Source: Streptomyces sp. NBC_01283 (GTDB taxonomy: Bacteria > Actinomycetota > Actinomycetes > Streptomycetales > Streptomycetaceae). From it: a DNA stretch of 64,000 nucleotides. The notes beneath the pieces are model-generated. The model had not been told where the DNA came from. It saw nothing but the letters and a program-made list of their open reading frames with translations, and made no database searches. The stretch is from contig NZ_CP108430.1 in NCBI RefSeq assembly GCF_041435335.1, positions 8,218,001 to 8,282,000 on the forward strand. Reading direction: 5' to 3'. Below, one piece after another: positions 3,531 through 50,134 of this stretch. Position 1 is the stretch's first letter. Each line of letters begins with the position of its first letter. The position numbers were made by a program, and so were the translations under genes.

Positions 3531-4757
3531 ATGTCCACCGCGCAGCAGGTCCCCGACATCCTCTCGCCCGAGTTCGCCGAGAACCCGTACCCGGCCTATC
3601 GAGTGATGCGGGAGAGCGCGCCGCTGTTCTGGCACGAGGCGACGCGGAGCTGGATCATCTCCCGGTACACGGATGTCGAGCGCGTATTCAAGGACAAGGG
3701 CTCGCAGTTCACCACCGACAACTACGACTGGCAGATCGAGCCCGTCCACGGCAAGACGATCCTCCAGCTCAGCGGCAGGGAACACTCCGTGCGGCGCGCG
3801 CTCGTCGCACCCGCGTTCCGCGGCAGCGACCTGCAGGAGAAGTTCCTGCCCGTCATAGAACGCAACTCCCGCGAACTCATCGACACCTTCCGGCACACCG
3901 GCAGCGTGGACCTGGTGGAGGGCTACGCCACCCGCTTCCCGGTCAACGTGATCGCCGACATGCTCGGCCTGGACAAGTCCGACCACGCGCGCTTCCACGG
4001 CTGGTACACCACCGTCATCGCCTTCCTCGGCAACCTCGCGGGCGACGCCGAGGTCGCGGCGGCCGGTGAGCGCACCCGGGTGGAGTTCGCCGAGTACATG
4101 ATCCCGATCATCCGGGAGCGCCGCGACAACCTCGGGGACGACCTGCTCTCCACGCTGTGCGCCGCCGAGGTGGACGGCGTCCGCATGAGTGACGAGGACA
4201 TCAAGGCCTTCTGCAGCCTGCTGCTCGCGGCGGGCGGCGAGACCACCGACAAGGCCATCGCCAGCATCTTCGCCAACCTCCTGATGCACCCCGAGCAGCT
4301 CGAGGCCGTCCGGCAGGACCGCACCCTGATCGCCCGCGCCTTCGCCGAGACACTGCGGTACACGCCGCCCGTGCACATGATCATGCGGCAGTCGGCGACC
4401 GACGTGGAGGTCAGCGGCGGCACCATCCCCGCCGGGGCCACCGTCACCTGCCTCATCGGCTCGGCCAACCGTGACGAGGAGCGCTACCGCGAGCCGGACC
4501 GCTTCGACATCTTCCGGGACGACCTGACCACGACGACGGCGTTCTCCGCCGCCGCCGACCACCTCTCCTTCGCCCTCGGCAGGCACTTCTGCGTGGGCGC
4601 GCTGCTTGCCAAGGCCGAGGTGGAGATCGGCGTCAGCCAACTCCTCGACGCGATGCCGGACGTACGGCTCGCCGAGGGCTTCGACCCCGTCGAGCAAGGC
4701 GTGTTCACCCGCGGACCGCAGTCGCTGCCGGTGGTCTTCACCCCTGCCACCGCCTGA
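3531..4757 (+). CDS. Cytochrome P450
   Basis: Soluble bacterial P450 monooxygenase of 408 residues, needing a separate ferredoxin and reductase. All core motifs are intact: I-helix AGGETT (about 234-239), ETLR as the ExxR pair (273-276), and heme loop 'FALGRHFCVG' with the axial Cys near 354. AGGAG lies 4 nt before the ATG. It converges on the conservon P450 and ends 57 bp from it, sharing a strong hairpin. No redox partner gene is next to it and the substrate is unknown. The pairing of an intact P450 with a conservon P450 suggests a related job, but that is inference. Confidence 0.9.
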   Translation: MSTAQQVPDILSPEFAENPYPAYRVMRESAPLFWHEATRSWIISRYTDVERVFKDKGSQFTTDNYDWQIEPVHGKTILQLSGREHSVRRALVAPAFRGSDLQEKFLPVIERNSRELIDTFRHTGSVDLVEGYATRFPVNVIADMLGLDKSDHARFHGWYTTVIAFLGNLAGDAEVAAAGERTRVEFAEYMIPIIRERRDNLGDDLLSTLCAAEVDGVRMSDEDIKAFCSLLLAAGGETTDKAIASIFANLLMHPEQLEAVRQDRTLIARAFAETLRYTPPVHMIMRQSATDVEVSGGTIPAGATVTCLIGSANRDEERYREPDRFDIFRDDLTTTTAFSAAADHLSFALGRHFCVGALLAKAEVEIGVSQLLDAMPDVRLAEGFDPVEQGVFTRGPQSLPVVFTPATA

Positions 4758-17938: not shown

Positions 17939-17952
17939 TGAAACGCGTTCTA
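17939..17952. promoter_or_regulatory. KstR-like box before the acyl-CoA dehydrogenase
   Basis: TGAAACGCGTTCTA matches the mycobacterial KstR core TNNAACNNGTTNNA at all eight fixed positions and contains the perfect palindrome AACGCGTT. It lies 53 bp before the start codon, a reasonable operator position. Confidence 0.55.
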
Positions 17953-18004: not shown

Positions 18005-19195
18005 GTGCACCTCGAATACACGCCTGAGCAGCGGCAGTTGCGCACCGAGCTGCGCACGTACTTCGCCGAGCTGGTGCCCGACAACGCGTACGCCCGCTAT
18101 GCCGACCCCGCCGCGCAGAAGCGGTTCTACCGGGAGACCATCCGGCGCCTCGGCTCCGACGGCTGGCTCGGCGTCGGCTGGCCCAAGGAGTACGGCGGCC
18201 GGGGGCTCTCCCCGATGGAGCAGTTCATCTTCTTCGACGAGGCCGCACAGGCCAACGTCCCGCTGCCCCTGATGGCCCTGAACACCGTCGGCCCGACCCT
18301 GATGCAGTTCGGCACCGACGAGCAGAAGGCGTACTTCCTGCCGAAGATCCTCTCCGGCGAACTCGACTTCGCGATCGGCTACAGCGAGCCGGACGCGGGC
18401 ACCGACCTCGCCGCCCTGAAGACCAAGGCGGTCCGGGAGGGCGACGAGGAGACCGGCCACTACACGGTCAACGGCCAGAAGATCTGGACCACCAACGGCG
18501 ACACCGCCGACTGGGTCTGGCTCGCCGTGCGCACCGACCCGGACGCCCCGCCCCACAAGGGCATCACCATGCTCCTCGTGCCGACGAGCGACCCCGGCTA
18601 CTCCTGCACCATCATCAACACCCTGGCCTCGCACGACACCACGGCGAGCTACTACGAGAACATCCGCGTCCCCGCATCGCGCCGCGTCGGCCAGGAGAAC
18701 AAGGGCTGGCGGCTCATCACCAACCAGCTCAACCACGAGCGCGTCACGCTCGCCGCCCACGGCACCATGGCCATCCGCGCCTTCCACAACGTGCAGCGCT
18801 GGGCCGCCGACACCAAGCTCGCCGACGGCCGCCGCGTCATCGACCTCGGCTGGGTCCGCCAGCGCCTGGCCAGGACGCACACCAAGCTGGACGCGATGAA
18901 GCTCCTCAACTGGCAGATGGTGAACGCCGTCCAGGAGGGCACCCTCACCCCCCAGGACGCCTCCGCCGTGAAGGTCTACGGCTCCGAGGCGCGCAGGGAC
19001 GCGTACGCCTGGCTCATGGAAGTGGTCGGCTCGGCGGGCTCACTCAAGGAGGGCTCCGCGGGCGCGGTCCTCCACGGAGAGCTGGAACGCGGCTACCGCA
19101 GCGCCGTCATCTTCACCTTCGGCGGCGGCAACAACGAGATCCAGCGCGAGATCATCTCCTGGATCGGCCTCGGGATGCCGCGCGTGCGGCGCTGA
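18005..19195 (+). CDS. Acyl-CoA dehydrogenase
   Basis: FAD-dependent enzyme of 396 residues that makes the 2,3-double bond in an acyl-CoA. 'YSEPDAGTDLAAL' and 'WTTNGDTADWVWLAVRT' form the FAD/substrate region, and 'FTFGGGNNEIQREIISWIGLGM' is the C-terminal FAD-binding end. Its length and divergent N-terminus resemble the mycobacterial FadE subunits used for sterol side chains rather than short-chain beta-oxidation enzymes. Those work as heteromers, but no partner is adjacent. GGAGG lies 4 nt before the GTG start. The KstR-like box upstream supports a link to sterol or isoprenoid catabolism. Confidence 0.88.
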   Translation: MHLEYTPEQRQLRTELRTYFAELVPDNAYARYADPAAQKRFYRETIRRLGSDGWLGVGWPKEYGGRGLSPMEQFIFFDEAAQANVPLPLMALNTVGPTLMQFGTDEQKAYFLPKILSGELDFAIGYSEPDAGTDLAALKTKAVREGDEETGHYTVNGQKIWTTNGDTADWVWLAVRTDPDAPPHKGITMLLVPTSDPGYSCTIINTLASHDTTASYYENIRVPASRRVGQENKGWRLITNQLNHERVTLAAHGTMAIRAFHNVQRWAADTKLADGRRVIDLGWVRQRLARTHTKLDAMKLLNWQMVNAVQEGTLTPQDASAVKVYGSEARRDAYAWLMEVVGSAGSLKEGSAGAVLHGELERGYRSAVIFTFGGGNNEIQREIISWIGLGMPRVRR

Positions 19196-31280: not shown

Positions 31281-32384
31281 ATGCAGACAGAGCTGAGCAG
31301 GAAACTGGGGATCGAGCACGCCATCTTCGGCTTCACGCCCTTCCCCGCGGTGGCGGCCGCCATCAGTAGGGCGGGCGGATTCGGTGTGCTCGGCGCGGTC
31401 CGCTACACGGCACCCGACGAGCTGGCCCGGGATCTCGACTGGATGCAGGAGCACGTCGGCGACAAGCCGTACGGCCTCGACGTCGTGATGCCCGCGAAGA
31501 AGGTCGAGGGGGTGAGCGAGGCCGACGTCGAGGCGATGATCCCCGAGGGCCACCGGCAGTTCGTCAAGGACACCCTCGGCAAGTACGGCGTGCCCGAACT
31601 CGCCGAAGGAGAGGCGTCCGGCTGGCGCATCACCGGGTGGATGGAACAGGTCGCCCGCAACCAGCTCGACGTGGCCTTCGACTACCCGATCAAGTTGCTC
31701 GCCAACGCCCTGGGCTCGCCGCCCGCCGACGTCATCCAGCGCGCCCACGACCACGATGTACTCGTCGCTGCCCTCGCGGGCAGCGCCCGGCACGCGCGCA
31801 AGCACGCCGAAGCGGGCATCGACATCGTCGTCGCGCAGGGCTACGAGGCGGGCGGCCACACCGGCGAGATCGCCTCCATGGTGCTGACGCCGGAGGCCGT
31901 CGAGGCCGTCGCGCCACTGCCGGTGCTCGCGGCGGGCGGCATCGGCAGCGGGGACCAGATCGCCGCCGCGTTCGCGCTCGGCGCGCAGGGCGTGTGGCTC
32001 GGCTCCCTCTGGCTCACCACGACCGAGGCCGACATGCACTCGCGGGCGCTCACCGAGAAGCTCCTGGCGGCGGGGTCGGGCGACACCGTCCGCTCGCGCG
32101 CCCTGACGGGCAAACCCGCACGCCAGCTGCGCACCGAATGGACCGACGCCTGGGACGACCCGGACGGGCCGGGCACGCTGCCCATGCCGCTGCAGGGGCT
32201 CCTGGTCGCCGAGGCGGTCTCACGGATCCAGAAGTACGAGGTCCAGGCGCTGCTCGGCACGCCCGTCGGGCAGATCGTCGGCCGCATGAACAGCGAACGC
32301 AGCGTCCAGGCGGTCTTCGACGACCTGACCCGTAGTTTCGAGCGGGCCATCGACCGGGTGAACCGCATCGCCGGACGCGACTGA
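31281..32384 (+). CDS. NAD(P)H-dependent flavin oxidoreductase / nitronate monooxygenase family
   Basis: FMN-binding TIM-barrel protein of 367 residues. 'AIFGFTPFPAVAAAISRAGGFGVLG' is the N-terminal FMN region, 'DIVVAQGYEAGGHTGE' carries the catalytic His of the family, and 'PVLAAGGIGSGDQIAAAFALGAQGVWLG' is the phosphate-binding part. Annotated members are nitronate monooxygenases, but those beside acyl-CoA ligases, like mycobacterial IpdC, are enoyl-type reductases of acyl-CoAs. The next gene, 24 bp away, is such a ligase. The operator at 31222-31238 probably controls both. Confidence 0.87.
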   Translation: MQTELSRKLGIEHAIFGFTPFPAVAAAISRAGGFGVLGAVRYTAPDELARDLDWMQEHVGDKPYGLDVVMPAKKVEGVSEADVEAMIPEGHRQFVKDTLGKYGVPELAEGEASGWRITGWMEQVARNQLDVAFDYPIKLLANALGSPPADVIQRAHDHDVLVAALAGSARHARKHAEAGIDIVVAQGYEAGGHTGEIASMVLTPEAVEAVAPLPVLAAGGIGSGDQIAAAFALGAQGVWLGSLWLTTTEADMHSRALTEKLLAAGSGDTVRSRALTGKPARQLRTEWTDAWDDPDGPGTLPMPLQGLLVAEAVSRIQKYEVQALLGTPVGQIVGRMNSERSVQAVFDDLTRSFERAIDRVNRIAGRD

Positions 32385-38811: not shown

Positions 38812-40098
38812 CTACTTGTCGCGCAGGTCCACGATCCGCTTGAACTTGCCCACCGACCGCTCGATCGTCTCCGGATCGACGATCTCGACCGCCACCGAGA
38901 CGCCGATGCCGTCCTTCACCGCCGACGCGATCTCCCGTGCCGCCGCCTCGCGCCGCTCGGGAGTCGTGTCCGCGCGGGACTCGGCCCGCACCGTCAGCGC
39001 GTCCATGCGGCCCTCGCGGGTCAGGCGCAGCTGGAAGTACGGGGCGACGCCCGGTGTCCGCAGGACGATCTCCTCCACCTGTGTGGGGAAGAGGTTCACG
39101 CCGCGCAGGATCACCATGTCGTCCGACCGGCCCGTGATCTTCTCCATCCGGCGGAAGACGCGTGCGGTGCCGGGCAGGAGCCGGGTCAGGTCGCGGGTGC
39201 GGTAGCGGATGACAGGCATGGCCTCCTTGGTGAGCGACGTGAAGACCAGCTCGCCGCGCTCGCCGTCCGGAAGCACCTCGCCGGTGATCGGATCCACCAC
39301 CTCCGGATAGAAGTGGTCCTCCCAGATGTGCAGGCCGTCCTTGGTCTCCACGCACTCCTGGGCGACACCGGGGCCGATCACCTCGGAGAGCCCGTATATG
39401 TCGACCGCGTCGATCGCGAACCGCTCCTCGATCTCGCGGCGCATCTCCTCCGTCCACGGCTCCGCGCCGAAGATGCCGACCTTGAGGGACGTCGTGCGCG
39501 GGTCGACGCCCTGCCGCTCGAACTCCTCCAGGAGCGTGAGCATGTACGAGGGGGTGACCATGATGATCTCGGGGCGGAAGTCCTGGATCAGCTGGACCTG
39601 GCGCGCCGTCATGCCGCCGGACGCGGGGATCACCGTGCAGCCGAGCCGCTCCGCGCCGTAGTGCGCGCCGAGGCCGCCGGTGAACAGGCCGTAGCCGTAC
39701 GCCACATGGACCTTGTGTCCGGGACGGCCGCCCGCCGCGCGGATCGAGCGGGCGACGACGTCCGCCCACATCGACAGGTCCTGCTCGGTGTAGCCGACGA
39801 CCGTGGGCCGCCCCGTGGTGCCGCTGGACGCGTGCAGGCGCCGCACCTCGGACTGTTCGACCGCGAACATCCCGAAGGGGTAGTTGTCCCGCAGGTCGGA
39901 CTTGGCCGTCAGCGGGAAGCGGGCCAGATCGGAGAGTGCGCGGCAGTCGTCGGGGTGCAGGCCCGCCTTGTCGAAGGCCGCCCGGTAGAAGGGCACGTTC
40001 TCGTACGCGTGCAGCAAGGTGTCCTGGAGGCGCTCCAGTTGCAGGGCCTCGAGCTCCTCGCGTCCGAGGCGTTCCGCCGCGTCAAGCATGGCCGTCAT
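38812..40098 (-). CDS. paaK: Phenylacetate-CoA ligase
   Basis: Cytosolic AMP-forming ligase of 428 residues, first step of aerobic phenylacetate breakdown. 'ENVPFYRAAFDKAGL', the P-loop 'HASSGTTGRPTVVGYT', 'YGLFTGGLGAHYGAERLGCTVIP', 'GLSEVIGPGVAQE' and the C-terminal 'VGKFKRIVDLR' are PaaK signatures. Homologous enzymes in natural-product clusters activate other aryl acids. The rest of the paa pathway is not in the window. Start at 40098 follows GGGAG; a second ATG lies 3 codons in. A perfect inverted repeat sits just upstream. Confidence 0.92.
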   Translation of the reverse strand: MTAMLDAAERLGREELEALQLERLQDTLLHAYENVPFYRAAFDKAGLHPDDCRALSDLARFPLTAKSDLRDNYPFGMFAVEQSEVRRLHASSGTTGRPTVVGYTEQDLSMWADVVARSIRAAGGRPGHKVHVAYGYGLFTGGLGAHYGAERLGCTVIPASGGMTARQVQLIQDFRPEIIMVTPSYMLTLLEEFERQGVDPRTTSLKVGIFGAEPWTEEMRREIEERFAIDAVDIYGLSEVIGPGVAQECVETKDGLHIWEDHFYPEVVDPITGEVLPDGERGELVFTSLTKEAMPVIRYRTRDLTRLLPGTARVFRRMEKITGRSDDMVILRGVNLFPTQVEEIVLRTPGVAPYFQLRLTREGRMDALTVRAESRADTTPERREAAAREIASAVKDGIGVSVAVEIVDPETIERSVGKFKRIVDLRDK

Positions 40099-40123
40099 AT
40101 GCCGTTCTCCCGTCCCAAACGGG

Positions 40124-40141
40124 CGACCGATCATTCGGTCG
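40124..40141. promoter_or_regulatory. TetR-type operator before paaK
   Basis: CGACCGA and TCGGTCG, perfect 7 bp arms with a 4 bp spacer, 26 bp before the start. The ACCGATCATTCGGT core resembles PaaR-type sites of the TetR family. No TetR gene is adjacent. Confidence 0.6.
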
Positions 40142-41903: not shown

Positions 41904-43517
41904 CTAGCCGCCCGCCGCCACCGCCTTCGCCCACCGGTAGTCCGCCTTGCCGCTCGGGGAGCGCTGGATCTGGGGTGTGAAGACCACCGCGCGGGGGATC
42001 TTGTAGCCGGCCAGGCGGGTGCGGCAGTGGGTCTGGACCGCCTCCAGGTCCAACGGGTCAGCCCCGTCGCGGAGTTGGACGACGGCGGCGACGCGGTTGC
42101 CCCAGCGTTCGTCGGGGACTCCGGCGACCAGCGCGTCGTACACGTCCGGATGGGACTTCAGTGCCTGCTCGACCTCCTCCGGATACACCTTTTCGCCCCC
42201 GGTGTTGATGCACTGCGAGCCCCGGCCGAGGACGGTGACGATGCCCTCTTCGTCGACGGTGGCCATGTCGCCGAGCAGGACCCAGCGCTCCTCGCCCTTC
42301 TGGAAGAAGGTCTCGGCGGTCTTCGCCGGGTCGTTGTAGTAGCCGAGCGGCACATGGCCGCGCTGGGCCAGGCGGCCCGGCTCGCCCACCGGGACCGGCT
42401 CGTGCGTGACCAGGTCCACCACCTGGGTGCGCTCGTTGACCTCCAGGCGGAAACCCTTCTCCGGGCCAGAGTCGTCCGTCGCCTTGCCGTTGGAACCGGA
42501 CTCGGACGAGCCGAAGTTGTTCAGGAGCAGGACGTTCGGGGCCAGTTCCTGGAACTGGGCGCGCACCGTCTCCGACATGATCGCCCCGGACGAGGAGACG
42601 CTGAACAGCGACGACAGGTCGGTGCCCTTGAGCGGTCCGTGCAGGGCGTCGATGAGCGGCCTGAGCATCGCGTCGCCCACCAGCGACACGCTGGAGACCT
42701 TCTCGCGCTCTATCGTGCGCAGCAGTTCCTCGGGAACGTACTTGCGGTGGATGGCCACCCGCTGGCCGTAGTTGAAGGCGATGAACGACGTCAGCGTCGA
42801 CGTGCCGTGCATCAGCGGGGGAGCGGGGAAGAACGTGAGGCCGGGGCCGCCCGCAGCGACGCGCTCCGCCAGCTCCTCGGGCCGCTTCACCGGCTCACCC
42901 GCGGGCTCACCGCCGAAGAGCCCGGCGAAGAACAGGTCCTCCTGGCGCCACATCACCCCCTTGGGCATGCCGGTGGTGCCGCCGGTGTAGATGATGAACA
43001 GGTCGTCGGCCGAACGCGCCGCGAACCCGCGCTCGGGCGAACCCGCCGCCTCGGCGTCGGCGAAGGCCACCACGTCGAGCGCGGGCGCGTCGGCAGGCGG
43101 GGTCCCCACCCGCACCAGATGCCGCAGCTTCTCCGTGCGCGGCAGCGCCGCCGCGACCCGCTCGGTGAACTCCGCGTCGAAGACGAGCGCGGCGAGATCC
43201 GCGTCGCGGTAGAGGTAGACCAACTCCTCCTCCACGTAGCGGTAGTTGACGTTGACCGGCACGAGGCGTGCCTTGAGGCAGGCAAGGACGGTCTGGAGGT
43301 ACTCGACGCCGTTGTAGAGATGGAGCCCCAGATGCTCGCCGGGCTTCAGACCGCTGTCGATCAGGTGGTGCGCGAGGCGGTTGGCGGCCCGGTCGAGCTC
43401 GGCGTACGTCAGCCTGCGTTCCGCCCCGGTGCCCGGGTGATCGATGTACACGAGCGCCTCGCGGTCGGGGACCACGTCGACGACCGACTCGAACAGGTCG
43501 GCAAGGTTGTACTCCAC
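41904..43517 (-). CDS. FadD19-like acyl-CoA ligase (steroid side-chain type)
   Basis: AMP-forming ligase of 537 residues. The P-loop reads 'IYTGGTTGMPKGVMWRQEDL'; the YTGGTTG...GVMWR form is characteristic of FadD19, the mycobacterial enzyme that activates C26/C24 sterol side-chain acids. Other matches by memory are 'ANRLAHHLID', 'LGRGSQCINTGGEKVYPEEVE' and 'RSPSGKADYRWAKA' at the end, with the catalytic Lys. GTG at 43517 with AGGAGG immediately upstream is chosen over an earlier ATG. It is divergent from the EchA19-like gene, as fadD19 and echA19 are in mycobacteria. Confidence 0.88.
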   Translation of the reverse strand: MEYNLADLFESVVDVVPDREALVYIDHPGTGAERRLTYAELDRAANRLAHHLIDSGLKPGEHLGLHLYNGVEYLQTVLACLKARLVPVNVNYRYVEEELVYLYRDADLAALVFDAEFTERVAAALPRTEKLRHLVRVGTPPADAPALDVVAFADAEAAGSPERGFAARSADDLFIIYTGGTTGMPKGVMWRQEDLFFAGLFGGEPAGEPVKRPEELAERVAAGGPGLTFFPAPPLMHGTSTLTSFIAFNYGQRVAIHRKYVPEELLRTIEREKVSSVSLVGDAMLRPLIDALHGPLKGTDLSSLFSVSSSGAIMSETVRAQFQELAPNVLLLNNFGSSESGSNGKATDDSGPEKGFRLEVNERTQVVDLVTHEPVPVGEPGRLAQRGHVPLGYYNDPAKTAETFFQKGEERWVLLGDMATVDEEGIVTVLGRGSQCINTGGEKVYPEEVEQALKSHPDVYDALVAGVPDERWGNRVAAVVQLRDGADPLDLEAVQTHCRTRLAGYKIPRAVVFTPQIQRSPSGKADYRWAKAVAAGG

Positions 43518-43602
43518 CGCTCCTCCTGACCCCGGCGTCATCTCTTCTGGCGGTCATCAGAGCAGAGGCACCCACAAGTGGGAAGGGCCCTCGTTCAAGA
43601 AA

Positions 43603-43619
43603 TCTGACTGACTGTCAGA
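43603..43619. promoter_or_regulatory. Inverted repeat in the fadD19/echA19-like divergent promoter
   Basis: TCTGACTGACTGTCAGA: perfect TCTGAC/GTCAGA arms. It is the same design (TCTGA-N7-TCAGA) as the site at 31222-31238 before the NMO-ligase operon. Confidence 0.6.
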
Positions 43620-43625
43620 AAACTA

Positions 43626-43654
43626 TTGAACTGGCTCCCCGCCTACTGCAACCT
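43626..43654 (+). promoter_or_regulatory. Possible promoter of the echA19-like operon
   Basis: TTGAAC (43626-43631) and CAACCT (43649-43654), 17 bp apart, lie between the two operator candidates. The -10 overlaps the KstR-like box, so a bound regulator would block it. Confidence 0.4.
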
Positions 43655-43661
43655 GTTCCAG
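43646..43661. promoter_or_regulatory. KstR-like box before the echA19-like operon
   Basis: CTGCAACCTGTTCCAG fits CTnnAACnnGTTnnAG, the extended KstR dyad, and contains an exact match to the core TNNAACNNGTTNNA. It lies 33 bp before the start codon. Confidence 0.6.
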
Positions 43662-43693
43662 GTCCGAAGCCGACGGCAAGAAGGAGGACGGCC

Positions 43694-44494
43694 ATGGGTG
43701 GGACGGAACATCTCGCTGTGCAGCGCGAAGGCGCCACACTGATACTCACGCTCAACCGGCCGGAGGCGAAGAACGCGCTGTCGCTGCCGATGCTGGTGGG
43801 CCTCTACGACGGATGGGTCGCCGCCGACGCGGACGACGAGATCCGTTCCGTCGTGCTCACCGGAGCGGGCGGAGCGTTCTGCGCGGGCATGGACCTCAAG
43901 GCCCTCGCGGGCAAGGGCATGGACGGCGATCAGTACCGGGACCGGATGAAGGCCGACCCCGATCTGCACTGGAAGGCGATGCTGCGCCACCACCGCCCCC
44001 GCAAACCCGTCATCGCCGCCGTCGAGGGGTACTGCGTCGCGGGCGGCACGGAGATCCTCCAGGGCACGGACATCCGCGTCGCGGGCGAGTCCGCGACGTT
44101 CGGCCTCTTCGAGGTAAAGCGCGGCCTGTTCCCCATCGGCGGCTCGACCGTGCGCCTCCCGCGCCAGATTCCCCGTACACACGCCCTGGAGATGCTGCTC
44201 ACCGGGCGCCCCTACTCGGCACGGGAGGCCGCGGACGTGGGCCTCATCGGCCATGTCGTGCCGGACGGCACTGCCCTGGAGAAGGCCCTCGCCATCGCCG
44301 GGCAGATCAACGCGTGCGGGCCGCTCGCCGTCGAGGCGGTCAAGGCATCCGTGTACGAGGCCGCCGAGATGTCCGAGACGGACGGCCTGGCGGCGGAGTT
44401 GAAGAGGGGGTGGCCGATCTTTGACACCGCTGACGCGAAGGAGGGCTCCAGAGCCTTTGCGGAGAAACGGCCCCCGGTGTTCCGGCGCGCATAG
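43694..44494 (+). CDS. Enoyl-CoA hydratase (EchA19-like)
   Basis: Crotonase-fold protein of 266 residues that hydrates enoyl-CoAs. 'LNRPEAKNALS' and 'GAGGAFCAGMDLKALAG' form the oxyanion and CoA regions. Both catalytic glutamates are present, in 'CVAGGTEILQGTDIRV' and 'FGLFEVKRGLFPIGGST'. Length and sequence recall EchA19 of M. tuberculosis, which acts on a steroid enoyl-CoA. Its position, divergent from the FadD19-like gene and followed by the DUF35 and thiolase-fold genes, supports that. A repeat element separates it from the next gene. Confidence 0.88.
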   Translation: MGGTEHLAVQREGATLILTLNRPEAKNALSLPMLVGLYDGWVAADADDEIRSVVLTGAGGAFCAGMDLKALAGKGMDGDQYRDRMKADPDLHWKAMLRHHRPRKPVIAAVEGYCVAGGTEILQGTDIRVAGESATFGLFEVKRGLFPIGGSTVRLPRQIPRTHALEMLLTGRPYSAREAADVGLIGHVVPDGTALEKALAIAGQINACGPLAVEAVKASVYEAAEMSETDGLAAELKRGWPIFDTADAKEGSRAFAEKRPPVFRRA

Positions 44495-44506
44495 GTCTCC
44501 TCTTTT

Positions 44507-44585
44507 GCCTGCGGGGCCGTTGTGGCTGGTCGCGCCCGCGCGGCGGAGCCGCACATCGATACAGCCCCGCGCCCCTTCGGGGCGC
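44507..44585. repeat. Streptomyces intergenic hairpin repeat (REP-like)
   Basis: The stretch has the known high-copy Streptomyces pattern (TTGCCTGCGG...GTGGCTGGTCGCGC...CCCCGCGCCCC) and ends in the hairpin GCGCCCC-TTC-GGGGCGC (44569-44585). It fills most of the 120 bp gap between echA19-like and DUF35 genes and may cause partial termination or mRNA processing. Confidence 0.7.
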
Positions 44586-44614
44586 TCCAATCGCCTAGAA
44601 ACGGAGTTCTGCTC

Positions 44615-45574
44615 ATGGCATCCGCCCCCTCACCCGAAGTGCTGCGTGCGCCTCTCGTGGTCGAGTTTCCGTTCACCCGGTCCCTCGGGCCCGTGCAGAG
44701 CGCCTTTCTGACCGGGCTGCGCGAGCGCACCGTGCTCGGGGTCAGGACCACCGACGGACGCACGCTCGTCCCGCCCGTCGAGTACGACCCCGTGACCGCC
44801 GACGAGATACGTGACCTGGTCGAGGTCTCCGCCACCGGCACCGTCGCCACCTGGGCCTGGAACCATGAACCCCGCAGGGGGCAGCCCCTGGACCGGCCCT
44901 TCGCCTGGGTCCTGGTGAAGCTCGACGGCGCCGACACCGCCCTGCTGCACGCCCTGGACGCGCCGGGCCCCGAAGAGGTCAGGACCGGCATGCGGGTCCG
45001 CATCCGCTGGGCCGCCGAGCGCACCGGCGCCATCACCGACATCGCCTGCTTCGAGGCGTACGAAGGGCCGGAAGGCGGCGAAGCCGCCCCGCACGAGGGG
45101 GAGTTCAGTGACCCCGTCACCGGCATCGTCGCCCCCGCGCGCCTCGACTACACCTACGCGCCCGGCCGCGCGCAGACCGCCTACATCAATGCCCTCTCCG
45201 AGCAGCGGACCGTCGGCGAGCGCTGCCCCTCCTGCCACAAGGTCTACGTCCCGCCCCGCGGCGCCTGCCCCACCTGCGGCGTCGCCACGACCGACCGGGT
45301 CGAAGTCGGCCCCCGCGGCACCGTCACCACGTACTGCATCGTCAACATCAAGGCGAAGAACCTCGACATCGAAGTGCCCTACGTGTACGCGCACATCGCC
45401 CTCGACGGCGCCGACCTCGCCCTGCACGCCCGCATCGCGGGCATCCCCTACGACCAGGTGCGGATGGGTCTTCGCGTCGAGCCGGTGTGGACCGAGGGTG
45501 CCCGCTTCCCCGACCACTACCGGCCCACGGGTGAGCCGGACGCCGACTACGACACGTACAAGGAGCTGGTGTAG
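44615..45574 (+). CDS. Double-DUF35 OB-fold protein (Rv3521-like)
   Basis: Protein of 319 residues made of two DUF35 acyl-CoA-binding OB-fold units. The first (about 20-155) has no zinc ribbon. The second has a four-Cys ribbon, 'RCPSCHKVYVPPRGACPTCG' (about 204-223), followed by its OB fold. DUF35 proteins act as obligate partners of thiolase-like lipid-transfer proteins, for example ChsH2 with Ltp2. The next gene starts directly after its stop (TAG ATG), which fits a stable complex. By memory it resembles Rv3521, also upstream of two ltp genes. Confidence 0.85.
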   Translation: MASAPSPEVLRAPLVVEFPFTRSLGPVQSAFLTGLRERTVLGVRTTDGRTLVPPVEYDPVTADEIRDLVEVSATGTVATWAWNHEPRRGQPLDRPFAWVLVKLDGADTALLHALDAPGPEEVRTGMRVRIRWAAERTGAITDIACFEAYEGPEGGEAAPHEGEFSDPVTGIVAPARLDYTYAPGRAQTAYINALSEQRTVGERCPSCHKVYVPPRGACPTCGVATTDRVEVGPRGTVTTYCIVNIKAKNLDIEVPYVYAHIALDGADLALHARIAGIPYDQVRMGLRVEPVWTEGARFPDHYRPTGEPDADYDTYKELV

Positions 45575-46663
45575 ATGCCGCCCGCGAAGACGTCCGCGAA
45601 GCCGTCGGTGATGCGGTCCGTCCGGGACATCGCCATCGTGGCCTTCGGGCAGACCGACCATCTGCGCTCCACCGACGAGCTCTCCGAGGTGGAGATGCTC
45701 ATGCCGGTCCTGCACCAGGTCCTCGCCTCGACCGGCCTGAAGACCAGCGACATCGGCTTCACGTGCTCGGGCTCGTCGGACTATCTCGCGGGCCGCGCCT
45801 TCTCCTTCACCATGGCGCTGGACGGGGTGGGAGCCTGGCCGCCGATCTCCGAGTCGCACGTCGAGATGGACGGGGCCTGGGCGCTGTACGAGGCGTGGAC
45901 CAAGCTCCTCACCGGCGACGCCGACACCGCGCTCGTGTACTCCTACGGCAAGTCGTCCCCGGGATCGGTGCGTGACGTACTGACCCGGCAGCTCGACCCG
46001 TACTACGTGGCGCCCCTCTGGCCGGACTCGGTCGCCCTCGCCGCCCTCCAGGCGCAGGCCCTCATCGACGCCGGGGACGCCGATGAGCCCGCACTCGCCG
46101 GGGTCGCCGCACGCAGCCGCGGGGACGCCGCCGCCAACTCCCATGCCCAGCTGAGCGGTTCGGTGCCGCAGGGTGACTACGTCGTACGCCCCCTGCGCGC
46201 CGGCGACTGCCCGCCCATCGGGGACGGTGCCGCCGCCGTCATCCTCGCGGCGGGGGACCGGGCCCGTGAGCTGTGCGAGCGGCCCGCGTGGATCCGGGGC
46301 ATCGACCACCGCATCGAGGCACACAGCCTCGGCGTGCGCGACCTCACCGACTCGCCCTCCAGCCGCCTGGCCGCCGAACGGGCCGGTGCCTTCGAACGGC
46401 CCGTGGACACCGCCGAGCTGCACGCGCCGTTCACCTCCCAGGAGATCGTCCTGCGCAAGGCACTGAAGCTGGGTGACGACGTCTCCGTGAACCCGTCCGG
46501 GGGCGCCCTTGCCGCGAACCCCGTCATGGCCGCCGGTCTGATCCGGCTCGGCGAGGCCGCGGCCCGCATCCACCGGGGCGAGTCGGACCGCGCCCTCGCG
46601 CACGCCACATCCGGCCCCTGCCTCCAGCAGAACCTGGTCGCCGTCCTCGAAGGAGAGTCGTGA
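45575..46663 (+). CDS. Thiolase-fold lipid-transfer protein (Ltp4-like), no catalytic Cys
   Basis: Thiolase-superfamily protein of 362 residues. Where thiolases have the nucleophilic Cys it reads 'SHVEMDGAWALYEAW', and the usual GHP of the catalytic His loop reads ANP in 'NPSGGALAANPVMAAG'. The protein is therefore unlikely to cleave by thiolysis; such variants include the retro-aldolase Ltp2. It begins immediately after the DUF35 stop and overlaps the next gene by one base. Likely forms a complex with the DUF35 protein, acting on a branched or steroid side-chain CoA ester. Confidence 0.85.
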   Translation: MPPAKTSAKPSVMRSVRDIAIVAFGQTDHLRSTDELSEVEMLMPVLHQVLASTGLKTSDIGFTCSGSSDYLAGRAFSFTMALDGVGAWPPISESHVEMDGAWALYEAWTKLLTGDADTALVYSYGKSSPGSVRDVLTRQLDPYYVAPLWPDSVALAALQAQALIDAGDADEPALAGVAARSRGDAAANSHAQLSGSVPQGDYVVRPLRAGDCPPIGDGAAAVILAAGDRARELCERPAWIRGIDHRIEAHSLGVRDLTDSPSSRLAAERAGAFERPVDTAELHAPFTSQEIVLRKALKLGDDVSVNPSGGALAANPVMAAGLIRLGEAAARIHRGESDRALAHATSGPCLQQNLVAVLEGES

Positions 46664-47850
46664 TGAGTGGGGTGAGCGGTGGGGTGAACAAGGAGCCCGT
46701 GGCCGTCGTCGGAATCGGCCAGACCAAGCACGTCGCCGCCCGGCAGGACGTTTCGATCGCGGGGCTCGTCCGGGAGGCGGCCCAACAGGCTCTCACGGAC
46801 GCCGAGTTGACGTGGGCCGACATCGACGCCGTGGTCATCGGCAAGGCGCCGGACTTCTTCGAGGGCGTCATGATGCCCGAGCTGTACCTCGCCGACGCGC
46901 TCGGCGCCGTGGGCAAGCCGATGCTGCGCGTCCACACGGCGGGCTCCGTCGGCGGCTCCACGGCGCTGGTCGCCGCGAATCTGATCGCGGGCCGCGTCCA
47001 CGGCACCGTACTGACCCTCGCCTTCGAAAAGCAGTCGGAATCCAACGCGATGTGGGGGCTCTCCCTGCCCGTCCCCTTCCAGCAGCCTCTCCTCGCGGGC
47101 GCGGGCGGCTTCTTCGCCCCGCACGTGCGCGCCTACATGCGGCGCACCGGCGCCCCCGACACGGTCGGCTCGCTCGTCGCCTACAAGGACCGCCGCAACG
47201 CCCTGAAGAACCCCTACGCGCACCTGCACGAGCACGACATCACCCTGGAGAAGGTCCAGGCATCGCCGATGCTCTGGGACCCGATCCGCTACTCCGAGAC
47301 CTGCCCGTCATCCGACGGGGCCTGCGCGATGATCCTCACCGACCGTGCGGGCGCGGCCCGTTCGCCCCGGCCGCCCGCCTGGATGCACGGCGGCGCGATG
47401 CGCAGCGAGCCGACCCTGCACGCGGGCAAGGACTTCGTCTCGCCGCAGGCGGGCAAGGACTGCGCGGCCGACGTCTACCGGCAGGCGGGGGTCACGGACC
47501 CGCGGCGCGAGATCGACGCCGTGGAGATGTACGTGCCGTTCTCCTGGTACGAGCCGATGTGGCTGGAGAACCTGGGCTTCGCCGAGGAGGGCGAGGGCTG
47601 GAAGCTCACCGAGTCGGGCGTGACGGAGCTGGACGGCGATCTGCCCGTCAACATGTCGGGCGGTGTCCTGTCCACCAATCCCATCGGCGCCTCGGGCATG
47701 ATCCGCTTCGCCGAAGCGGCACTTCAGGTGCGCGGCCAGGCCGGCGAGCACCAGATCGACGGGGCCCGCAGGGCGCTCGGACACGCCTACGGAGGCGGCT
47801 CGCAGTTCTTCTCCATGTGGCTGGTCGGCGCGGAGCAGCCCACGACGTGA
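46663..47850 (+). CDS. Thiolase-fold lipid-transfer protein (Ltp3-like), no catalytic Cys
   Basis: Second thiolase-like protein, 395 residues. The nucleophile position reads 'VHTAGSVGGSTALVAANL', with Ala-Gly-Ser in place of a Cys, and the His loop reads TNP in 'NMSGGVLSTNPIGASG'. The C-terminal 'GHAYGGGSQFFSMWLVG' is of the SCP2-thiolase kind. Size and order match Ltp3 after Ltp4 in mycobacteria. ATG at 46663 overlaps the previous stop (TGATG). It is the last gene of the operon. Confidence 0.86.
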   Translation: MSGVSGGVNKEPVAVVGIGQTKHVAARQDVSIAGLVREAAQQALTDAELTWADIDAVVIGKAPDFFEGVMMPELYLADALGAVGKPMLRVHTAGSVGGSTALVAANLIAGRVHGTVLTLAFEKQSESNAMWGLSLPVPFQQPLLAGAGGFFAPHVRAYMRRTGAPDTVGSLVAYKDRRNALKNPYAHLHEHDITLEKVQASPMLWDPIRYSETCPSSDGACAMILTDRAGAARSPRPPAWMHGGAMRSEPTLHAGKDFVSPQAGKDCAADVYRQAGVTDPRREIDAVEMYVPFSWYEPMWLENLGFAEEGEGWKLTESGVTELDGDLPVNMSGGVLSTNPIGASGMIRFAEAALQVRGQAGEHQIDGARRALGHAYGGGSQFFSMWLVGAEQPTT

Positions 47851-49402: not shown

Positions 49403-50134
49403 TCACCGCAGCACCACACACCCCCGCCCCTCCAGCCTCCGCAGCAGCTCATCCGGCACGGCGACCTCGTTCCAGCGCAGGTCGAGCTTCTCCAGCGCGG
49501 GCAGGTCGCCGATCCACGGCGGGAGCTCCCGCAGGCGGTTCGCCCGCAGATCGAGTCTCCGCAGGCGGGGCAGGCCACGCAGGGCCTCCGGCACCGTCGC
49601 GAACTCGTTCTCGCGCAGCTCCAGTTCGCGCAGGTCGGCGAGGCCGTGGAGCGAGGTGGGGAGCGAGGTGAGGCGGTTCCCGCGCAGCCACAGTTCGCGC
49701 AGCGCGGTCAGGGCGCCGAGCGAGGAAGGGAGCGAGGTCAGGTGGTTGCGCTGGGCGCGCAGTTCCACCAGGGCGTCGAGTGAGCCCAGGGTGTCCGGAA
49801 GCGCCGTCAGCCGGTTCTCGCCCACATTGAGGTACGCCAGCCGCTTCAGGTTGCCCAGGGAGTCCGGCAGCGACGTGAGGCGGTTGTCGTGGACGTAGAG
49901 GAAGCGGCTCAGGGACGTCAGGTCCCCGAGCTCCGGCGGGAGCTCCGTCAGGTGGTTGTGGCCCAGGTCCAGCGTGTGCAGCGAGGCCAGGGTGCCGATC
50001 CGCGCGGGGAGCCGCGTGAGCGCGTTGTCGGGCAGGAGCAGGACCTCCAGGGACGGGTGGTGCCACACCGCGTCGGGAACCTCGCTCAGGCCGCCGTGCC
50101 AGTAGTTGAGTACGTTCTCGGTACCGACCGTCAC
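49403..50134 (-). CDS. Leucine-rich-repeat protein
   Basis: Soluble protein of 243 residues consisting almost wholly of about nine 23-residue leucine-rich repeats (consensus like 'LGxLxxLxxLxLxxNxLTSLP'), of the SHOC2/ROCO-type. There is no signal peptide or catalytic domain, so it is a cytosolic binding scaffold. The 69 bp period is visible in the DNA. GTG start at 50134. It is divergent from a LuxR-type regulator, 172 bp away. Partner unknown. Confidence 0.88.
   Translation of the reverse strand: MTVGTENVLNYWHGGLSEVPDAVWHHPSLEVLLLPDNALTRLPARIGTLASLHTLDLGHNHLTELPPELGDLTSLSRFLYVHDNRLTSLPDSLGNLKRLAYLNVGENRLTALPDTLGSLDALVELRAQRNHLTSLPSSLGALTALRELWLRGNRLTSLPTSLHGLADLRELELRENEFATVPEALRGLPRLRRLDLRANRLRELPPWIGDLPALEKLDLRWNEVAVPDELLRRLEGRGCVVLR

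Follow-up and report, generated by a model that had tools for sequence, protein, structure and literature searches.

A conserved fadD19–echA19–DUF35–ltp4–ltp3 block with a KstR-type operator in Streptomyces: a probable side-chain module for C24-branched sterols

Plant and fungal sterols are mostly branched at C24, and Streptomyces is a dominant soil genus. Three described systems are close to the locus reported here: the KstR regulon of mycobacteria and rhodococci, the KstR2 regulon with its HIP pathway, and the Ltp2–ChsH2(DUF35) retro-aldolase of structure 6ok1, in which Ltp2 acts at C17–C20. In Mycobacterium smegmatis FadD19 is reported to be required for β-sitosterol but not for cholesterol, and Ltp3 and Ltp4 to be essential for branched but not for straight chains (PMC6273163); in Nocardioides the aldol steps are assigned to ltp3 and ltp4 (PMC7807495), and both reports have Ltp3/Ltp4 acting on C24-branched chains. 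CYP125A13 of Streptomyces peucetius is reported to hydroxylate cholesterol in vitro (PMC9728343). Here we analyse a stretch of 64,000 nt from Streptomyces sp. NBC_01283 (NZ_CP108430.1, 8,218,001–8,282,000), referred to as the window (positions are those of the window unless marked C1, which denotes contig coordinates of the same genome), that carries fadD19-, echA19-, DUF35-, ltp4- and ltp3-like genes in a compact block. We conclude with good confidence that this block is the side-chain module for C24-branched (plant or fungal) sterols of a Streptomyces KstR regulon, and our best reading of the genome around it is that a dispersed regulon keeps the side-chain and C/D-ring parts of the pathway and often not the A/B-ring part.

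Genes in the window were first taken from a list of open reading frames, and their proteins were searched with Pfam and NCBIfam profiles. A FadD19-type sterol-acyl CoA ligase (41904..43541, minus strand, 545 aa; the start may be 43517) is divergent from an EchA19-type enoyl-CoA hydratase (43694..44494, plus strand, 266 aa), which is followed on the plus strand by an Rv3521-like double OB-fold partner protein of the DUF35/ChsH2 type (44615..45574, 319 aa; the start may be 44657) and by two thiolase-fold proteins proposed as aldolase subunits, one Ltp4-like (45575..46663, 362 aa) and one Ltp3-like (46660..47850, 396 aa; the start may be 46684). Given the longest starts, the last three genes lie head to tail with a zero gap and then a 4-bp overlap. 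Pfam places AMP-binding in the FadD19-like protein, ECH_1 in the EchA19-like protein, two OB_ChsH2_C stretches and one zf-ChsH2 in the DUF35 protein, and Thiolase_C_1 strongly in the Ltp3-like and below threshold in the Ltp4-like protein. Four of the five pass a curated subfamily or equivalog cut-off of NCBIfam: FadD19 with NF005863 (741.7 bits, cut-off 543), EchA19 with NF005864 (424.6 bits, cut-off 316), Ltp4 with NF005924 (574.8 bits, cut-off 419) and Ltp3 with NF006180 (715.2 bits, cut-off 514); the sole match of the DUF35 protein is weak (21.5 bits). The sequence-only reading made of this stretch beforehand had described just this arrangement, a FadD19-like ligase divergent from an EchA19-like hydratase and followed by a ‘double DUF35’ and two thiolase-fold proteins with no cyp142 between them, and it was right on each of these points. 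The ligase keeps the P-loop TGGTTGMPKG and the C-terminal SPSGKADY (no solved relative in the PDB at E ≤ 1e-60), and the closest solved relatives of the hydratase are the EchA19 structures 6wyi and 4f47.

Reciprocal best hits were sought between 501 kb of the window's own genome and the 120-kb KstR/KstR2 region of a mycobacteria-like comparison genome (G201), whose mycobacterial gene names, like those of the ring-cluster loci below, we take to follow from gene order; NCBIfam confirmed its KstD, HsaC and HsaA, and gave no match at E ≤ 1e-60 for its IpdA and KshA. All five block proteins have a reciprocal best hit there (FadD19 43% identity, EchA19 56%, Rv3521-like 43%, Ltp4 55%, Ltp3 66%). When Ltp3 and Ltp4 are aligned with FadA5 and FadA6, the nucleophilic Cys and the His are both seen to be replaced, as they are in the G201 counterparts, so that neither protein has the catalytic pair of a degradative thiolase (FadA type) and neither should work as a thiolase, as is expected of aldolases. 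The PDB matches of Ltp3 are headed by 4yzo (148 bits), followed by SCP2 thiolases, benzoylsuccinyl-CoA thiolase and Ltp2 of 6ok1; Ltp4 weakly matches 4yzo and various thiolases, 6ok1 not being among the matches listed, and the DUF35 protein matches in part the ChsH2(DUF35) of 6ok1. A four-Cys ribbon is kept in the DUF35 protein of the window and its Cys residues are lost in the protein at the Rv3521 position of G201, suggesting that the G201 form may be the derived one.

Ltp4 was searched for (E ≤ 1e-20) in 199 genomes of the genus Streptomyces and in 296 genomes of the class spanning 114 genera, and was found in 136 of the former and in 79 of the latter (26 of the 114 genera). When a single script scanned 100 Streptomyces loci, including 80 that were the top-ranking named matches of a further search, 97 held all five genes, and order and orientation were identical in all 97; the arrangement is therefore not due to chance. 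S. griseofuscus and S. viridochromogenes are among the carriers of the block. Together with the five reciprocal best hits this bears out the kinship in sequence and gene order that the sequence-only reading had proposed. Genes in fetched loci were called with a codon-usage script rather than a standard gene finder, and starts may be wrong (that of the cholesterol oxidase gene below is an example). A layout survey of 40 loci fetched around Ltp4 matches found the compact layout in the Streptomyces loci, DUF35–ltp4–ltp3–fadD19 in a row in all seven loci of one sampled family (f17), and echA19 separated from the DUF35 gene by additional genes in five of nine loci of the mycobacteria-like family (f4). 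The five genes do not always keep company, as eight of the 40 loci (four of f4 and four of f18) have DUF35–ltp4–ltp3 without fadD19 or echA19 nearby within the fetched stretch.

The motif used for KstR was TnnAACnnGTTnnA, as given in PMC1995591, with AACnnGTT as its core and TRNAACNNGTTNYA as the pattern for searching the own genome. The intergenic region between fadD19 and echA19 contains a KstR-type operator, TGCAACCTGTTCCA (43647..43660), which fits TnnAACnnGTTnnA, and an operator-like palindrome, CTGACTGACTGTCAG (43604..43618), of the form CTGAC-N5-GTCAG. Intergenic regions from 97 Streptomyces loci were compared with shuffles that preserve base composition only: CTGAC-N5-GTCAG is exact in all 97 (0 expected), the KstR core is present in 93 (2.5 expected) and the full KstR motif in 40 (0.04 expected), and in all 40 regions with both full motifs the KstR motif lies 43 bp beyond the CTGAC palindrome, start to start. 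This conservation is partly a matter of shared ancestry. Outside Streptomyces at least one KstR-type site is present in 20 of 29 loci (f4 9/9, f26 3/3, f14/f12 3/3, f35 1/1, f17 3/7 and f18 1/6), and CTGAC sites in three of the 29.

Across the own genome the KstR pattern gave 12 sites, as compared with one for the reversed control. Six of them precede orthologues of pathway genes (fadD19/echA19 and the FadE26-, FadE27-, KstR-, FadE34- and Hsd4B-like genes), which upholds the tie to the cholesterol (KstR) regulon that the sequence-only reading had drawn. The second site in the window, TGAAACGCGTTCTA (17939..17952), was found by the motif search and lies 52 bp before the called start of a FadE26 (ChsE4)-like acyl-CoA dehydrogenase gene (18005..19195, plus strand; identified by Pfam and as a 52% reciprocal best hit to G201 FadE26), whose product is a candidate partner enzyme of the block. 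The KstR-like gene itself, at C1:6394763, is a 42% reciprocal best hit to G201 KstR with the helix-turn-helix conserved, and the region that it shares with a divergent gene holds a KstR-type site, TGAAACTTGTTCTA; 13 kb separate this kstR-like gene from fadE34, whereas the two are adjacent in mycobacteria. Kendall 2007 gives SCO2319 only as a possible KstR orthologue, without synteny. One further site (C1:6385334) lies by metallo-hydrolase-like and aldehyde-dehydrogenase-like genes, so named from a look at their sequences. A cholesterol oxidase gene (best PDB match 1coy, 715 bits) was considered as lying behind another full motif and rejected, as its true 547-aa reading frame starts at C1:1656834 and the motif falls inside it; therefore six, not seven, of the 12 sites are counted as pathway promoters. 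A KstR core with its last base off the motif, TAGAACTCGTTCCC (C1:1656794-1656807), does lie 26 bp before the cholesterol oxidase ATG. Folds of the ligase, hydratase and thiolase types are widespread, and the block might be taken for ordinary fatty-acid β-oxidation genes, or for a decaying remnant, but with the thiolase residues lost from Ltp3 and Ltp4 and with order and operators kept in all 97 complete loci this is extremely improbable; generic β-oxidation was rejected on account of the lost residues and the conserved operators.

The CTGAC-N5-GTCAG palindrome was rejected as a KstR site, since the KstR motif forms a palindrome of its own and no CTGAC site occurs in the 120-kb region of G201. 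The own genome has 38 such sites, as compared with three for the reversed control, and the median number is 41 in the 136 Ltp4 carriers and 19 in the 63 non-carriers (uncorrected for phylogeny or genome size); as most non-carriers are also above the reversed control, the motif has roles outside this pathway as well. An exact site lies just upstream of the Ltp2/ChsH operon (C1:4758496-4763551, which includes two acyl-CoA dehydrogenase genes), and the 11 operon starts recovered from other Streptomyces all have one too; 20 promoter regions had been fetched, and the nine without an operon start had no site there. CTGAC control of the ipd cluster was considered and rejected, because exact sites occur in only five of 20 loci and in varying places, and a KstR2-type site fits better.

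The other genes of side-chain degradation are found elsewhere in the own genome. Besides the block five, the reciprocal best hits to G201 comprise Hsd4A, FadE26, FadE27, Rv3520c, Hsd4B, Ltp2, ChsH1, ChsH2, FadA5, FadE34 and KstR, together with CYP125 (read in part); for FadD17, ChsE1 and ChsE2, which were also tried, none was obtained in the stretches examined. For rings C and D there are Rv3548c, Rv3549c, EchA20, IpdA, IpdB, IpdC, FadA6, KstR2, IpdF, FadE30, FadD3, IpdE1 and FadE32, and IpdE2 with a hit covering 53% of the query. A HIP cluster at 1.867–1.881 Mb has ipdABC, fadA6, ipdF and echA20 with a KstR2-like regulator gene and a KstR2-type operator motif, ACCAAACACTTGTT, two of whose 14 bases differ from ACCAAGCACTTGCT in G201. 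An 882-aa gene lies between ipdC and fadA6 (C1:1873145-1875793); it is also present in one other sampled genome (G123), and a match was found in one (L158) of 20 further HIP-cluster loci, some of which were cut. Ltp4, IpdA and Ltp2, each searched for in the same 199 Streptomyces genomes, are all present in 131, all absent in 59 and mixed in nine, and Ltp4 and IpdA occur together in 133, singly in three and three, and neither in 60 (phi 0.93). The pathway had been called ‘pared-down’ by the sequence-only reading; this fails, because the side-chain genes missing from the block sit elsewhere in the genome, and it is rings A and B that are missing. The same reading had left the substrate as steroid, hopanoid or other isoprenoid, and of these a steroid is the likeliest here. 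Hydration of a β-branched acyl-CoA followed by retro-aldol cleavage would fit any β-branched isoprenoid acid, be it hopanoid, triterpenoid or acyclic, and the known nucleus genes are missing, both of which would suit a non-sterol substrate. This is nevertheless improbable, as orthologues of KstR and KstR2 with their motifs are present in the same genome, and CYP125, FadA5, Ltp2/ChsH and the HIP orthologues are steroid enzymes in their characterized relatives; because of these motifs and orthologues sterols are favoured over hopanoids and other isoprenoids.

A route for C24-branched sterols can be proposed that extends the gene identities, residues, operator-like motifs, conservation and co-occurrence observed here by analogy with mycobacterial and rhodococcal work, from which the reactions, the complex, the binding of the repressor and its ligand are inferred. 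Cholesterol oxidase would produce the 3-keto-4-ene sterol and CYP125, judging by orthology, would oxidize C26, after which FadD19 would form the 26-oyl-CoA of sterols of the campesterol, sitosterol or ergosterol type. FadE26/FadE27 would desaturate this and EchA19 would add water to give a tertiary β-hydroxy-acyl-CoA. Because of the C24 alkyl branch this hydroxyl is tertiary and would not be open to oxidation or to normal β-oxidation, and therefore the Ltp4/Ltp3/Rv3521-like complex, with its thiolase fold lacking the thiolase Cys and His, would cut by retro-aldol cleavage. FadE34, Hsd4B/Hsd4A, FadA5 and the products of the Ltp2/ChsH1/ChsH2 operon would then shorten the chain to a 17-ketosteroid. 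The KstR-type repressor is predicted to shut the fadD19 and echA19 promoters until a sterol-derived ligand arrives, and a second regulator presumably binds CTGAC-N5-GTCAG beside the KstR-type site.

The fate of the nucleus is another matter. A search of the whole own genome, for which G201 gave a positive control, found no KstD at 1e-20 and no HsaC at 1e-10, that is, neither of the two enzymes that mark a complete 9,10-seco cholesterol pathway. KshA, HsaA, HsaD, HsaE, HsaF and HsaG had no match at 1e-5 in 501 kb of this genome; the reciprocal best hit to HsaB (45%) is a flavin-reductase-like gene below its curated cut-off, and that to KshB (33%) looks, from its sequence, like a phenylacetate-type reductase. 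Among the 199 Streptomyces genomes KstD was found at E ≤ 1e-60 in 60 of the 136 Ltp4 carriers (leaving 76 without a match) and in eight of the 63 non-carriers; a recount that dropped six genomes with a best hit only 34–42% identical, and kept those with at least 43%, left 59 and three, and these three non-carriers all hold Ltp2 or IpdA. In all eight loci fetched for having KstD near the block (L193–L200), KstD lies downstream of ltp3 with a few unrelated genes between. HsaC was found in none of nine block-carrying Streptomyces searched. Two genomes outside that set, G155 and G179, carry both the block and HsaC; these and G195 have KstD, KshA, KshB, HsaA, HsaC, HsaF and HsaG clustered in one place (HsaD was not recognized in these clusters), a ring set that the searches made of the own genome did not reveal, and in G155 and G195, the two for which that side was fetched, HsaE and further side-chain genes lie beside the ring cluster.

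One explanation of this distribution is that the side chain alone is harvested, sterols being turned into AD-type 17-ketosteroids for their propionyl- and acetyl-CoA, with HIP scavenged separately from other soil bacteria. As a statement about what becomes of the rings it is compatible with a C24-branched side-chain module, and we give it about even chances: the own genome lacks KstD and HsaC, 76 of 136 carriers lack KstD and the nine genomes searched lack HsaC, and Crowe et al. cite a streptomycete that turns HIP into MOODA (PMC5380842). Since KstD of at least 43% identity is present in 59 of the 136 carriers, and HsaC with other ring genes in three genomes including the block-carrying G155, some Streptomyces go beyond the side chain, and harvesting does not account for the joint occurrence of side-chain and HIP genes in the absence of the steps between them.

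If the whole sterol is instead mineralized, rings A and B would have to be opened by enzymes non-homologous to KstD and HsaC, with the HIP cluster finishing rings C and D. A candidate source of the missing steps, or else a set of genes for another terpenoid, is a cluster at 5.19–5.26 Mb (C1:5194546-5260675; L103–L106), which encodes a FadD3-family ligase, two sets of DUF35 and Ltp-like genes, an NDP-forming-type CoA ligase, an FMO-like protein, an HsaB-like flavin reductase, F420-type enzymes, amidohydrolases and a TetR_C_38 regulator (C1:5216489-5217136), itself a candidate for the protein that binds the CTGAC palindrome. Twelve exact CTGAC-N5-GTCAG sites lie in this cluster. The operator shared with the block, the retained KstR2/HIP cluster with its KstR2-like gene and near-identical operator, and a report of one Streptomyces strain grown on cholesterol as sole carbon source (PMC5807524) all speak for mineralization, but the enzymes of the cluster are mostly generic and several fall under curated cut-offs, and we regard it as possible but rather unlikely. 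It is a tentative and rather unlikely proposal that most Streptomyces have a split catabolism, in which orthologous KstR and KstR2 regulons would serve the side chain (branched chains of plant and fungal type among them) and rings C/D and a non-homologous CTGAC-linked set, for which the 5.19–5.26 Mb cluster is the candidate, would serve rings A/B, and which a survey based on nucleus markers would have missed.

Several points weigh against assigning the block to a sterol side-chain pathway. As KstD and HsaC are absent, the known route for degrading the nucleus is not available in the own genome. The identity of FadD19 to its G201 counterpart is only 43%, the hydratase narrowly misses the EchA19 equivalog NF051848 (376.8 bits, cut-off 400), and the reciprocal best hits rest on a 120-kb stretch rather than a whole genome. 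As to the operators, only 40 of 97 intergenic regions have the full KstR motif, four of the 12 sites in the own genome (C1:664512, 2661142, 8172681 and 8694844) have no evident pathway gene and may be chance matches, and the full motif at the cholesterol oxidase gene (C1:1656896-1656909) falls where the gene codes for the signal peptide, not upstream of the reading frame. Co-occurrence and operator-site counts are given without correction for phylogeny. Orthologues of the uptake genes of G201 that we take to be of the mce4 type were not seen in the examined stretches of the own genome. mce4 is, however, reported to be limited to mycolic-acid bacteria (PMC4810484). In M. smegmatis echA19 is reported to be non-essential for either sterol, its loss only slowing degradation (PMC6273163), and in the literature searched, as far as its text was available, we found no assay of a Streptomyces FadD19, EchA19 or Ltp protein.

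Other genes of the window were also considered. A nitronate-monooxygenase-like flavoprotein (31281..32384, plus strand; Pfam) is a 53% reciprocal best hit to a G201 gene beside fadD19; its membership is uncertain, and no operator was found at its gene. The P450 at 3531-4757 was tried as cyp142 and rejected: it is a reciprocal best hit within the compared stretches with 30% identity, but among NCBIfam families it is nearest to one of P450s associated with cyclodipeptide synthases, and even there it stays under the cut-off. The phenylacetate-CoA ligase PaaK (38812-40134, above its NCBIfam cut-off) lies near fadD19, as it does in seven of ten other Streptomyces loci that include fadD19, and a leucine-rich-repeat protein (49403-50134) adjoins the block, with a match near it in four of 11 other Streptomyces loci. 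Two Ltp-like matches with identical scores (C1:151635-152312 and C1:9272726-9273403) lie at mirror-image distances of about 151.6 kb from either end of the contig, which is the pattern that a linear chromosome with long inverted repeats at its termini would give.

The module belongs to the established KstR side-chain kind. Two things appear to be new, as far as the literature was searched: it is usual for the sampled Streptomyces to combine genes for the side chain and for rings C/D with KstR motifs at the block, in many cases lacking KstD, and CTGAC-N5-GTCAG seems to have been added as a second operator; no description of a Streptomyces KstR regulon of this kind was found in the available text of that literature. 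A genome survey of 2016 made KshA and HsaC a requirement and counted 55 of 57 Streptomyces genomes among those without a steroid pathway, and because nucleus genes including these two were required it could not see a state with side-chain and C/D genes (PMC4810484). If functional, the genes described here would change the view of who processes sterols in soil and make the fate of the sterol nucleus a testable question, and they may point to hosts in which breakdown ends of its own accord at 17-ketosteroids, the products that industry seeks from phytosterol fermentation.

Compared with the mycobacterial and rhodococcal KstR regulon, the Streptomyces system has the same five families, the same divergent fadD19/echA19 pair and the same order DUF35–ltp4–ltp3, and a KstR motif is present in the fadD19–echA19 region of both G201 and Streptomyces. 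It differs in that the block is compact, with neither cyp142 nor Rv3520c between its genes, and the remaining regulon is scattered over the chromosome, in the added CTGAC-N5-GTCAG palindrome, which the 120-kb region of G201 lacks, and in a DUF35 protein that keeps the Cys ribbon lost in G201. The KstR2 regulon and HIP pathway are matched by orthologues of Rv3548c, Rv3549c, echA20, ipdABC, fadA6, kstR2, ipdF, ipdE1 and fadE32 lying together, but the HIP cluster is here a separate locus at 1.87 Mb, and fadD3, fadE30-like and ipdE2-like genes are at 5.2 Mb. With the Ltp2–ChsH2(DUF35) retro-aldolase 6ok1 the block shares a thiolase fold without thiolase residues and a DUF35 partner, the matches being 71 bits for Ltp3 with chain A and 43 bits for the DUF35 protein with chain B, although Ltp3 is nearer to other solved thiolase-fold proteins, with 4yzo at the top.

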